A DNA stretch of 64,000 nt from Bacteroidales bacterium (GTDB taxonomy: Bacteria > Bacteroidota > Bacteroidia > Bacteroidales > JAADGE01). Of the stretch, positions 28,817-33,053 are shown one piece after another. Both the position numbers and the translations under genes were made by a program. The first letter of the stretch is position 1; the number at the start of each line of letters is the position of its first letter. The notes beneath the pieces are model-generated. The model ran no database searches. It was not told where the DNA came from and was given only the letters and a program-made list of their open reading frames with translations. The stretch spans positions 124,001 to 188,000 of the forward strand of contig JAIORQ010000052.1 of NCBI GenBank assembly GCA_021108035.1, given 5' to 3'.

Positions 28817-28956
28817 TTTATAAGACGCATTTTTATCAGACGCTGATTAACGCAGATTTTTTATGATTGTTTTAGTTTTATCATAATAATCAGCGTAAAT
28901 CAGCGTCTGTATTTTATTTTTATCATAATAATCTTAATAAATCAGCGTCTAACTTT
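28817..28956. repeat. Copies of the agacgctgattt/atcataataatcagcg repeat family
   Basis: The spacer holds an L-orientation unit (agacgctgattaacgcag, near 28838-28857) and two R-orientation units (atcataataatcagcg with aatcagcgtct, near 28879-28905, and tcataataatcttaataaatcagcgtct, near 28922-28948). The last one ends 8 bp from the stop of the lolA-like gene at 28957. The same family surrounds the GxxExxY gene 2.3 kb away. Orientation changes give a hairpin-forming layout. Confidence 0.8.
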
Positions 28957-30320: not shown

Positions 30321-31043
30321 TTATGATTTTTTATTTTTTAAACGTAAAAACTCCTCTAAAATTTCAACAGTATTCGTTTTTGTATCATGAAATAAAACAA
30401 TGTTTCCCGGTTTAGCTTTTTCAAGTCTTTTTAAAACTGTTTTTTTATCTTTAACAGTATCCAAAGAACGTATACTCCAACCAATTGTTTCCAAATTTAA
30501 TTTTTTGACAGCTTTTGCAATATTAGGATTTGTAACTCCGAAAGGCGGTCGAAAAATAATGCAATCTTTTCCGGAAATTTTTTTAATGAGTTTATTTGTT
30601 TTATCAAGTTCTTTAATAACTTTTGAAGTTCTGAAAAAATCAAAATAATATGAGTGAGAGTAGGAGTGATTACCGATTTCATGTCCTTGTTCTGCAATTT
30701 GTTTTAGAATTTCAGGATGTTTTTCAATTTTTTCACCGATACAAAAAAAAGTAGCTTTTTTATTATACTTTTTTAAGACTTTCAAGATTTTTGGAGTAGT
30801 GTTCGGGTCGGGTCCGTCGTCAAAAGTTAAGTGTATTTTACTTTTGTCTTCTGAAATACACTTTATATTCATATAAAACTGTGAGCATACATTCTTTGCA
30901 CCGAGGAACAATATAAAGGAATAAATTAAAAAAGGGATTACAAAGTAAAGAGCAGAAAACGGATACAAAATTCTTAATACAATAATAATTAAGAAAATGG
31001 TAAGAAAAGCGAATGTTGTATTTTTGAAATTAAAAACTTTCAT
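30321..31043 (-). CDS. Polysaccharide deacetylase (NodB domain), membrane-anchored
   Basis: Two N-terminal membrane helices (FAFLTIFLIIIVLRILYPF and ALYFVIPFLIYSFILFLG) are followed by a NodB domain: THLTFDDGPDPNTTP-like metal site (HLTFDDGPD), EIGNHSYSHSYY, IFRPPFGVTNP, and IVLFHDT near the end. These are the family's Asp-His-His metal ligands and catalytic residues. I start at 31043 (MKVFNFKN). The in-frame ATG at 31097 would lie inside the flanking repeat, and a TAAATTTG promoter-like box (31062-31069) lies between the two. Such deacetylases occur in flexirubin/aryl-polyene clusters. Confidence 0.85.
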   Translation of the reverse strand: MKVFNFKNTTFAFLTIFLIIIVLRILYPFSALYFVIPFLIYSFILFLGAKNVCSQFYMNIKCISEDKSKIHLTFDDGPDPNTTPKILKVLKKYNKKATFFCIGEKIEKHPEILKQIAEQGHEIGNHSYSHSYYFDFFRTSKVIKELDKTNKLIKKISGKDCIIFRPPFGVTNPNIAKAVKKLNLETIGWSIRSLDTVKDKKTVLKRLEKAKPGNIVLFHDTKTNTVEILEEFLRLKNKKS

Positions 31044-31082
31044 ATTCGATGCGATATTTCGCAAATTTATATGCTTTTTTTT

Positions 31083-31192
31083 TATCATAATAATCATAGT
31101 AAATCATAGTAAATTTTTTCAGACGCAGATTTACACAGATTTTTTATGATTTTTTTGCAGATGCAGATTATCACTAATTATTTATGATTTTT
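31083..31192. repeat. L-oriented repeat copies beside GxxExxY relic
   Basis: This stretch contains tatcataataatcatag followed by inverted units cagacgcagatttacacag (about 31120-31138) and gcagatgcagattatcacta (about 31157-31176), each followed by tttatgattttt. They are in the opposite orientation to the tandem array at 31705-31960, so the GxxExxY gene and its relic are bracketed by inverted members of one repeat family. Confidence 0.75.
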
Positions 31193-31194
31193 AC

Positions 31195-31227
31195 TTAAAT
31201 GTCTGAATGCTTGTAATTTTCTTTCAT
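31195..31227 (-). pseudogene. 10-codon relic of a second GxxExxY gene
   Basis: The minus strand reads MKENYKHSDI then TAA. The intact gene 440 bp upstream begins MKSNFKHSDISEK, so seven of ten residues match. The 45 bp upstream of both ATG codons also match (31225-31270 against 31669-31714). The relic breaks directly into repeat units at its 3' side. Confidence 0.75.
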
Positions 31228-31270
31228 AACTTATTTTTTAAATCATAATAATCATAAAAAATCAGCGTCA
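31225..31270. repeat. Direct repeat, left copy (promoter-side sequence of GxxExxY)
   Basis: cataacttattttttaaatcataataatcat... aligns without gaps to 31669-31714, with a few mismatches. It includes a GxxExxY start codon on the minus strand and one R unit ending atcagcgtc. This copy also encodes the last residues and the stop of the intact gene. Confidence 0.8.
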
Positions 31271-31671
31271 ATTTTTTTTATCTTGTTTTTGTATTCTTTG
31301 GTTAATACACGTCTTGTAATTTGTGGTTTAGGGCCAAAATTTAAAATTAATCCTACTTCAATATTAGTAGCTTTCAGATAATTGACAAGTTGAATTTCGT
31401 GTTCATCAATTATATTTTTTACAGCTTTTAATTCAACAATTACGTTATCTTCAACAATTATATCCGGATAATAATCACCAATGTTTTGATTTTTATACAG
31501 AACTTCAACAGCTTGTTGTCTTTTTCTCTCTAAACCTAAATCTTTCAATTCAATCATCATTGCCTTTTCATAAACTTTCTCTAAAAAGCCGTAACCTAAT
31601 TCGTTATAAACATTATAAAATGCTTTGATAATTTTTTCTGAAATGTCGGAATGTTTAAAATTTGATTTCAT
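31252..31671 (-). CDS. GxxExxY protein (PD-(D/E)XK nuclease-like)
   Basis: The 139-residue protein shows the family's name motif GFLEKVYEKAM (residues about 29-39) and a PD-(D/E)XK-type core: YYPDIIVEDNVIVELKAVK holds the Asp and the Glu-x-Lys, with HEIQLVNYLKATNIEVGLILNFG as the following helix-strand. The fold suggests a nuclease, but the biological role of the family is unknown. The last residues (DADFL) and the TGA are encoded by repeat sequence, and the gene is wholly enclosed by copies of one repeat family, as if gene and repeats move or persist together. Confidence 0.85.
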   Translation of the reverse strand: MKSNFKHSDISEKIIKAFYNVYNELGYGFLEKVYEKAMMIELKDLGLERKRQQAVEVLYKNQNIGDYYPDIIVEDNVIVELKAVKNIIDEHEIQLVNYLKATNIEVGLILNFGPKPQITRRVLTKEYKNKIKKIDADFL

Positions 31672-31990
31672 AACTTATTTTTTTTATCATAATAATCATA
31701 GTCAATCAGCGTCTCATTATTTTTTAATCATAATAATCAGCGAAAATCAGCGTCTCATTATTTTTTAATCATAATAATCAGCGAAAATCAGCGTCTCATT
31801 ATTTTTTAATCATAATAATCAGCGAAAATCAGCGTCTCATTATTTTTTAATCATAATAATCAGCGAAAATCAGCGTCTCATTATTTTTTAATCATAATAA
31901 TCAGCGAAAATCAGCGTCTCATTATTTTTTAATCATAATAATCAGCGAAAATCAGCGTCTAAATTTTTAAACATAACAATCAGCGAAAAT
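31669..31990. repeat. 41-bp tandem array (seven units)
   Basis: The decamer atcagcgtct starts at 31705, 31746, 31787, 31828, 31869, 31910 and 31951, exactly 41 bp apart. The unit is cgaaaatcag-cgtctcatta-ttttttaatc-ataataatca-g, almost invariant. There is no variable spacer, so this is not a CRISPR array. An eighth, diverged half unit (aaatcagcatcag) lies at 31986-31998, where it forms the 3' end of the ketosynthase-like gene. The left end merges with the direct-repeat copy at 31669-31714. Confidence 0.9.
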
Positions 31991-33053
31991 CAGCATCAGC
32001 ATTCGACAATAACATAAACGAATGATTAATATTAAAATAATGATTATAAATTAAGATATTTTTAATTTTTGTCGGTTTTTTTTCATTTAACATAATAAAT
32101 TCCGGTATTTTTTGTGATTTCATAATATTTGCACCCAACCATAAAGCAAAAGCACTTGCTGTTTGATATTCACCTGTTAAATGTTTAAAGTATGCAGAAG
32201 GCATACCGGAGAAGTTATCGTTCAAAAAAATATCATATATTTTATCTCTTTCAAAATCACCACTGTTACCGGTAATAATTAAATCAATATCTTCTTTAAT
32301 TGTATTGTTTTCTTTCAAAAAAGTATGTAATTCATTATTTATATCATTGTTATTTTCAGGCTTATATATCATTTTAAGACCTTTTAGTGATGCATAAGTT
32401 TCTTCTTTTTTTTCAGATGATAAAACAAAAAAAGAAACTCCTTCACCGCATAAAGCACCTGAAGTATTTGACTTTAATATGTTTGTATTGTTAATTGCTT
32501 TCTGTTTCCACCAACCTGTTTTTTTTGAAATATTAAAATAATGCTTTGTCATTTCATCGGCACCACCAATTAAAATATTTTTTTTGCCTTCATTAATATG
32601 CATTATTCCGTCAAATAATGCAGATTCAAAAGAAAATCCTCTGTGGACATATGTGAAGTTATAAGCATGGCATTTAATCCTTAATGCTATTTGAGCAGCA
32701 ACCGTATTATGTGTTGATTGAATAAAAGACGTAGGTGTTAGAAATTTTTCATCATTTCCAAGCATATTTTCCAGAAACCGTTCAGTATCTGTAACAATTC
32801 CTAATCCTGTTCCTGCAATAACAGCATCAGGCATATCAATCTCGGCTTCTTGCATTGCAATTTGCGAGCAAATAATTCCGTTTTTAACGGTTTTGCTCAT
32901 TCGTCTTGCTTCAATCGGTTTCATGTATTCTTTGTAGCTTGGTTTAATCGACTGTAAAAATTCTTCGTTATATTCAACAATTCCCTTTAAGAAATTTTCA
33001 AAGTTCAAAGAATTTTGAGGTGATAAACTTGCTGTACCGTTTATATAAAACAT
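31980..33053 (-). CDS. Ketosynthase-like protein lacking the catalytic Cys (chain-length-factor type)
   Basis: The 357-residue protein has a thiolase fold (FYINGTASLSPQN start, DAVIAGTGLGIVTDTERFLENM, LTPTSFIQSTHNTVAAQIAL, NILIGGADEMTKHYF). At the nucleophile position it reads TYVHRGFSFESALFDG instead of the usual ACSS motif, so it is probably a structural or chain-length-determining partner of an active ketosynthase. It is 3 bp from the active ketosynthase gene. Its last residues (NADADFR) and the stop codon fall in repeat sequence, so the natural C-terminus may have been altered by the repeat. Confidence 0.82.
   Translation of the reverse strand: MFYINGTASLSPQNSLNFENFLKGIVEYNEEFLQSIKPSYKEYMKPIEARRMSKTVKNGIICSQIAMQEAEIDMPDAVIAGTGLGIVTDTERFLENMLGNDEKFLTPTSFIQSTHNTVAAQIALRIKCHAYNFTYVHRGFSFESALFDGIMHINEGKKNILIGGADEMTKHYFNISKKTGWWKQKAINNTNILKSNTSGALCGEGVSFFVLSSEKKEETYASLKGLKMIYKPENNNDINNELHTFLKENNTIKEDIDLIITGNSGDFERDKIYDIFLNDNFSGMPSAYFKHLTGEYQTASAFALWLGANIMKSQKIPEFIMLNEKKPTKIKNILIYNHYFNINHSFMLLSNADADFR

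Follow-up and report, generated by a model that had tools for sequence, protein, structure and literature searches.

Introduction

The described arrangement closest to the locus reported here is that of REP sequences and REPINs with their RAYT genes (REPtrons). In both, a nuclease gene lies between inverted palindromic units of a kind that also occurs dispersed, the dispersed units lie mostly in spacers and are often hairpin doublets, and the type of repeat is linked to the type of resident gene. RAYTs are HUH tyrosine transposases, and the REPs associated with them bear an unpaired GTAG tag (PMC3733652); the RAYT genes themselves are single-copy and vertically inherited (PMC3116915). CGTC-tagged REPs, for which a dedicated transposase is not known (PMC3733652), are likewise palindromic dispersed repeats, and the units studied here end in GCGTC. 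The intervening sequences (IVS) of 23S rRNA, elements of about 430 nt which have been called selfish, also have a small ORF (about 120-130 aa), of the S23p family (PF05635), bounded by terminal inverted repeats; RNase III excises them (PMC4990558). MITEs and insertion sequences offer a further parallel in their terminal inverted arms, their autonomous and gene-less copies and their insertion polymorphism. Free-standing homing endonucleases of the PD-(D/E)XK type are comparable in fold class and small gene size, and in a selfish spread by site-specific cutting that is conceivable here as well. The literature searched gives neither a function nor associated repeats for GxxExxY proteins; subscription papers and preprints lay outside that search, so a prior description is possible.

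Results

A GxxExxY gene among inverted repeat units

The window analysed, a 64,000-nucleotide stretch of a Bacteroidales contig, contains a GxxExxY gene which a first-pass annotation had described as enclosed by a dispersed repeat family. Rereading of the locus confirmed that the gene lies among L- and R-oriented units in inverted arrangement (Table 1). Read on the minus strand, the window repeat unit is GACGCTGATTTACGCTGATTATTATGATT, composed of three words of about 10 bp, and the unit of the 41-bp array is GACGCTGATTTTCGCTGATTATTATGATT, with a word spacing of 10 bp. The units on the low-coordinate side are repeats as annotated, but the stretch 31181-31240 is not purely repeat: in it the start of a second GxxExxY gene survives as a relic, so these units belong partly to a decayed second copy.

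Table 1 Features of the GxxExxY locus and of the related palindrome in the window.
Feature	Position	Strand	Basis
Gene-less palindrome, same words as the window element, between LolA-like and lipoprotein genes	28831..28955	.	hairpin fold
Polysaccharide-deacetylase-like gene, opposite side of element	30321..31097	-	comparison with relatives
Additional R-oriented unit, degenerate (ATCATAATAATCATAGTAAATCATAGTA)	31083..31113	+	sequence reading, genome pattern match
Two L-oriented units (AGACGCAGATTTACACAGATTTTTTATGAT), inverted partner of R units	31114..31192	-	repeat reading
5'-end relic of second GxxExxY gene (MKENYKHSDI*VKII)	31181..31240	-	49/60 nt equal to the intact gene's start
R-oriented unit, overlaps GxxExxY 3' end	31231..31279	+	sequence reading
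GxxExxY / PDDEXK_3 gene, 139 aa	31252..31671	-	profile matches; E31, D70, E80-x-K82 intact
41-bp unit AATCATAATAATCAGCGAAAATCAGCGTC, 7.8 tandem copies, 5' of GxxExxY start	31679..31994	+	repeat reading
Ketosynthase-like (KS) gene adjoining the insertion	31980..33053	-	comparison with relatives

Repeat sequence extends into the coding regions. The R-oriented unit at the 3' end of the GxxExxY gene encodes its C-terminal IDADFL*, and the C-terminus of the KS gene (..LLSNADADFR*) is also encoded by the repeat; relatives of the KS gene end in ..LLSRP* or similar. Stop-codon insertions of this kind rewrite the C-termini of neighbours at a further locus too (..LYDDADFR* at L088, beside ..NADADFR* in the window).

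The same units had been noted in the LolA/lipoprotein spacer, and this holds: a near-complete palindrome fills it, and its core (28835-28912) is predicted to form a DNA hairpin (z = -10; z-scores of word palindromes ranged from -7 to -15). In the 4.96-Mb source genome, the pattern ATCATAATAATCN6AATCAGCGTC, allowing at most 3 mismatches, gave 28 copies at about 18 places and the reversed control pattern gave 0 matches, indicating that the window repeat is not due to chance. Copies of the window type are mostly solo and located in spacers. The genome contains three GxxExxY genes with three words, CGCTGATTTA-type in the window, CACAGAATAA-type on contig C72 and CACAGATT/CCACTGATT on contig C39.

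The protein is a conserved nuclease-like protein

Profile matches of the window protein to PF13366 (E=6e-42, 143 bits, cut-off 22) and TIGR04256 (E=2.4e-40, 137.5 bits, cut-off 35) bore out the family assignment given in the first-pass annotation. The catalytic set is kept: E31 (of GxxExxY), D70, E80 and K82 are invariant in alignments of 26 and 44 sequences. G26, G28, Y34, N111 and F112 are invariant too. The AlphaFold model (pLDDT 88.9) has Cas4 (4ic1, E=2e-4), lambda exonuclease and Hjc as its nearest PDB folds, and a PDB search with the protein sequence returned no match. PF13366 was the only domain found, and the fold is other than that of an HUH Y1 transposase. The protein qualifies for the PD-(D/E)XK superfamily, having the catalytic E, D and ExK on a modelled restriction-endonuclease-like core. 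Its fold kinship with the Holliday-junction resolvase Hjc makes the cutting of extruded word cruciforms a plausible step. PADLOC reported weak Cas4-like profile matches (E about 7e-4); a Cas4 function was rejected because these matches are marginal and are explained by the shared fold. Values of dN/dS were 0.04-0.14, taken only from pairs with unsaturated dS, and the gene is under strong purifying selection.

Occupied, solo and empty sites among species of one genus

We compared the spacers around the locus, and the purH/purC spacer, among species of the genus. The KS/deacetylase junction has a short spacer (less than about 80 bp) and no element in G003, G007, G008, G011 and G012, and G009 has a solo arm there. 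Between the deacetylase and LolA genes lie about 2-70 bp in other species of the genus, but G009 has at this position a complete ~450-bp element that is bounded by GACGC..GCGTC and overwrites the deacetylase stop. In the LolA/lipoprotein spacer, G003 has a frameshifted GxxExxY gene and the window species has gene-less palindromes. Between purH and purC, the spacer is empty in G002 (~40 bp), carries a GxxExxY gene with the CACAAGG word in G005 and with the CATTAAG word in G003, carries a PF05635 gene in G001, and has solo palindromes, arms or fragments in G000, G006, G010, G011 and G012. Four junctions are empty, solo or occupied among species of one genus, which is insertion polymorphism; the compared sites are from different species and too diverged for exact ends or target duplications to be read. 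A different palindrome, GTAGAGACAGTCTGCAGGCTGTCT / GTAGAGACAGCCCGGCAGGCTGTCTC, belonging to another dispersed repeat family, was also seen in the purH-purC spacer (L345, L352; G000, G011).

Minimal elements with GxxExxY as the sole gene were found in G009, G018, G003 and Bacteroides finegoldii (L344). Three of these (G009, with GACGC..GCGTC, G018 and L344) have terminal inverted repeats with defined ends, as do insertion sequences and MITEs.

A seemingly recent duplication in G096 (contigs C3 and C14; L121/L122) was discarded on finding one GxxExxY locus assembled twice with a different tandem copy number. The two assemblies differ in how many copies of a 79-bp tandem unit they have, so arrays grow and contract. 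Arrays of words are often found only a few bases from a contig end (G030, G056, G076, G073), which suggests that short-read assemblies break at them.

Word-built inverted arms surround GxxExxY genes in many phyla

The link between gene and repeat had been described as one of location only. We compared the 200 bp upstream with the reverse-complemented 200 bp downstream of 58 GxxExxY genes in related genomes, and did the same for 501 control ORFs from those contigs. The median arm score was 30.5 for GxxExxY genes and 19 for the controls (p=2e-13); 34/58 genes exceeded the control 95th percentile and 24/58 had no significant inverted pair under this strict score. Relative to controls, recurrence of the same short word was raised about 7-fold at lags of 9 and 10 bp and up to about 5.5-fold at 18-20 bp. 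The recurrence of flank words every 8-10 bp fell to background at about 600 bp from the gene. A second sample of 80 independent loci from named genomes (Bacteroidota, Ignavibacteria, Chlorobiota, Desulfuromonadaceae) was drawn with a narrow alignment, A2, and so is biased to the ELGPGLLE clade; 65 of these 80 loci exceeded their control 95th percentile for inverted arms.

The commonest form of the word, C[AG]CNNA[GT], occurred 17.7 versus 4.7 times per kb (3.8-fold enriched), and pairs of it at 8-10 bp spacing were enriched about 30-40-fold; some clades fall outside this form, for example those with CATTAAG. The same word-arm architecture was present at single loci from Gemmatimonadota and Fusobacteriota, a short inverted pair at a single Spirochaetota locus, and only the left arm at a single alphaproteobacterial locus. 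GC-rich words of the same design occur in Gemmatirosa (CCGCAGAGGACGCAGAGG) and Sphingomonas (CGCGAAGGCGCGAGG). The placement of GxxExxY inside word palindromes is general across many phyla and well supported. The enrichment of repeats near these genes that the first-pass annotation had proposed to look for was found, in both the inverted arms and the words at lags of 9-10 bp, and "location only" no longer describes a link that is statistical over 138 genes, decays within about 600 bp and has a word that tracks the gene clade.

Coupling of repeat word to gene clade

Gene distance and flank-word similarity were correlated (Mantel permutation p<0.0005). In the second sample the Mantel r was 0.575 near the gene versus 0.256 at one kilobase, the latter indicating that host relatedness accounts for part of the signal. 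In genomes with several GxxExxY genes, the closest homologue in another genome shared words with a gene better than did its same-genome paralogues in 65/75 cases, and with syntenic pairs (homologous neighbours) removed the foreign homologue still won 63/74 (p=2.7e-10). Because the foreign homologue outscores the paralogues, gene and word travel together, independent of the host. The ends of the units also differ by clade, being GCGTC in the window and CCAC or CCATTAAG elsewhere. The coupling shows linkage of gene and word; the protein may recognise its word, but co-divergence could also arise from linkage without recognition.

A parallel family with a different period

Genes of PF05635 (23S_rRNA_IVP; the S23p/IVP family, a four-helix bundle) are multicopy in the same genomes and are also enclosed by inverted word arms. 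These arms have a strict 7-bp period (lag 7 = 30 versus 2.5 per kb) and show no 9-10-bp signal, so the 9-10-bp grammar is specific to GxxExxY. For PF05635, the correlation of gene with word could not be told apart from the effect of host relatedness (r=0.63 near the gene, 0.50 far from it). The source genome has 13 PF05635 genes; words at PF05635 loci (L230-L259, for example L242, L237 and L254) include GAGATTT, TAGGCAT and CAGTAGC, and the gene in the purH-purC spacer of G001 (L348) belongs to this parallel 7-bp system.

Gene presence and word copy number

Of 99 related genomes, 52 had GxxExxY; a single genome gave as many as 12 matches, and many copies were broken. At least 2 copies of tandem CGCAAAG were found in 24/52 genomes with the gene versus 4/47 without (p=2e-5), at least 2 of tandem CACAGAG in 20/52 versus 3/47 (p=1e-4), and the window unit in 8/52 versus 0/47 (p=0.004). 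The comparison of unit counts called for earlier thus gave the enrichment in genomes with the gene, but copies were not absent from those lacking it: G076 (66 copies), G051 (19) and G083 (12) have no detected gene, and G030 has 18 window-type word copies with the cognate gene absent from the assembly. Because many arrays are located at contig ends, the assemblies may lack some genes. The arrays of gene-less, copy-rich genomes, when opened, contained no other recurring gene family. Repeats equally common far from GxxExxY genes, or as numerous in genomes lacking them, would have spoken against the association, and on this the outcome was mixed: the surroundings of the gene are enriched in units, but solo copies make up the majority genome-wide, and large numbers occur in a few genomes with no detected gene.

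One CGCAAAG palindrome array of G076 (L360, contig C86), a genome in which GxxExxY was not detected, adjoins an ORF that by eye resembles a DUF1016/YhcG-type nuclease. A scan of IMG/VR yielded 105 candidate stretches, none a confirmed relative of the A2 clade; a phage-cargo origin for that clade accordingly has no support.

Discussion

The first-pass annotation had called the locus REP/RAYT-like, and it does work alike, with inverted copies of a dispersed palindromic repeat on either side of the gene; membership of that class did not hold. Unlike REP/RAYT systems, the enzyme here is of the PD-(D/E)XK type and not an HUH Y1 transposase, GTAG tags are absent from the window units as read, the arms consist of tandem 7-mers with a spacing of ~10 bp, and the gene, rather than being single-copy and vertically inherited, is mobile and multicopy. 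The CGTC of CGTC REPs is an unpaired tag, whereas that of the window units would base-pair with GACG in the predicted hairpin stem. Unlike 23S rRNA IVS, which are located in rRNA, encode an unrelated protein and lack 10-bp words, the window element lies in an operon of protein genes with a PF13366 ORF. It differs from MITEs and insertion sequences in having no known transposase fold and in its helically phased word arms, and from homing endonucleases in that GxxExxY sits in neither intron nor intein and has a word array of its own as well as dispersed copies without the gene.

We favour, as moderately probable, the reading that the GxxExxY gene and its flanking word palindromes form one mobile unit of which the gene-less palindromes are copies. 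Mobility of the unit is well supported, and the whole resembles a selfish mobile element of an undescribed kind. The left arm consists of a short word, most often C[AG]CNNA[GT], about once per helical turn, and the right arm of its reverse complement; the gene lies between or within the palindromes, the unit inserts into intergenic spacers, and gene-less palindromes would be miniature, solo or decayed copies. The nuclease, probably a multimer reading one word per turn, would bind and cut its own arms or the extruded cruciform, and repair or transposition from the cut would place copies of the unit in further spacers. We infer, as the best explanation, that the nuclease mobilises the unit. A broader proposal is that GxxExxY mobilises an undescribed cross-phylum class of element, in which one small nuclease reads a clade-specific heptamer, placed once per DNA turn in the inverted arms, and spreads palindromes with and without the gene, the unrelated PF05635 family having evolved a parallel 7-bp system; we hold this tentatively, with doubt slightly outweighing belief.

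GxxExxY might instead be cargo that co-diverges with palindromes spread by other machinery, either a transposase resident in the genome or the action of host replication and repair on hairpins. Linkage alone would yield the gene-word correlation, many solo copies occur in genomes without a detected cognate gene, and the unrelated PF05635 rides in analogous palindromes. We nevertheless consider this unlikely, since the minimal elements contain no other gene, the two families each have their own period (9-10 bp for GxxExxY, 7 bp for PF05635), and strong purifying selection together with an intact nuclease site is unexpected for inert cargo.

An element of the IVS type, whose RNA stem would be excised from operon transcripts by RNase III, rendering operon insertions harmless, while the protein serves spread or RNA handling, is improbable. 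Known IVS elements do carry an S23p ORF and are excised in this way (PMC4990558), and GxxExxY lies inside operons, for example fabD-GxxExxY-fabG, and is co-directional with both neighbours in 40/52 cases. This orientation bias is weak, however (77% versus 64% of control genes), the protein, unrelated to S23p, is folded like a DNA nuclease, and a period of 9-10 bp corresponds to the DNA helical turn and is not an RNA requirement.

The weak PADLOC matches and the Cas4 structural neighbour would fit a host function, in which a genome-defence or recombination nuclease uses the dispersed words as recognition or self marks. Presence of the gene is patchy, though, several clades with different words coexist in one genome, the truncated and frameshifted copies and the insertion polymorphism fit a selfish element, and IMG/VR gave no confirmed A2-clade relative; we regard this account as very improbable. 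An artefact of AT-rich or simple-sequence spacers, suggested by the AT-rich spacers of the window, can be dismissed as negligible given the 0 versus 28 matches of the pattern controls, the same design in the GC-rich Gemmatirosa and Sphingomonas, the hairpin z-scores and the lack of an equal period-10 signal beside random small genes among the first-sample controls.

Palindromic words such as CCACAGAGGACACAGAG or CGCTAAGGCGCAAAG are scattered in many bacterial genomes, and we found no described origin for them. One large class of such words is now tied to the widespread GxxExxY family, which thereby gains a testable role. Mobile word units would also account for the variable spacers and the assembly breaks of these genomes, and the natural series of gene-word pairs might allow a protein-DNA recognition code to be read. 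If the nuclease does move the unit, it would represent a mobile-element chemistry apart from the DDE, HUH, serine and tyrosine enzymes.
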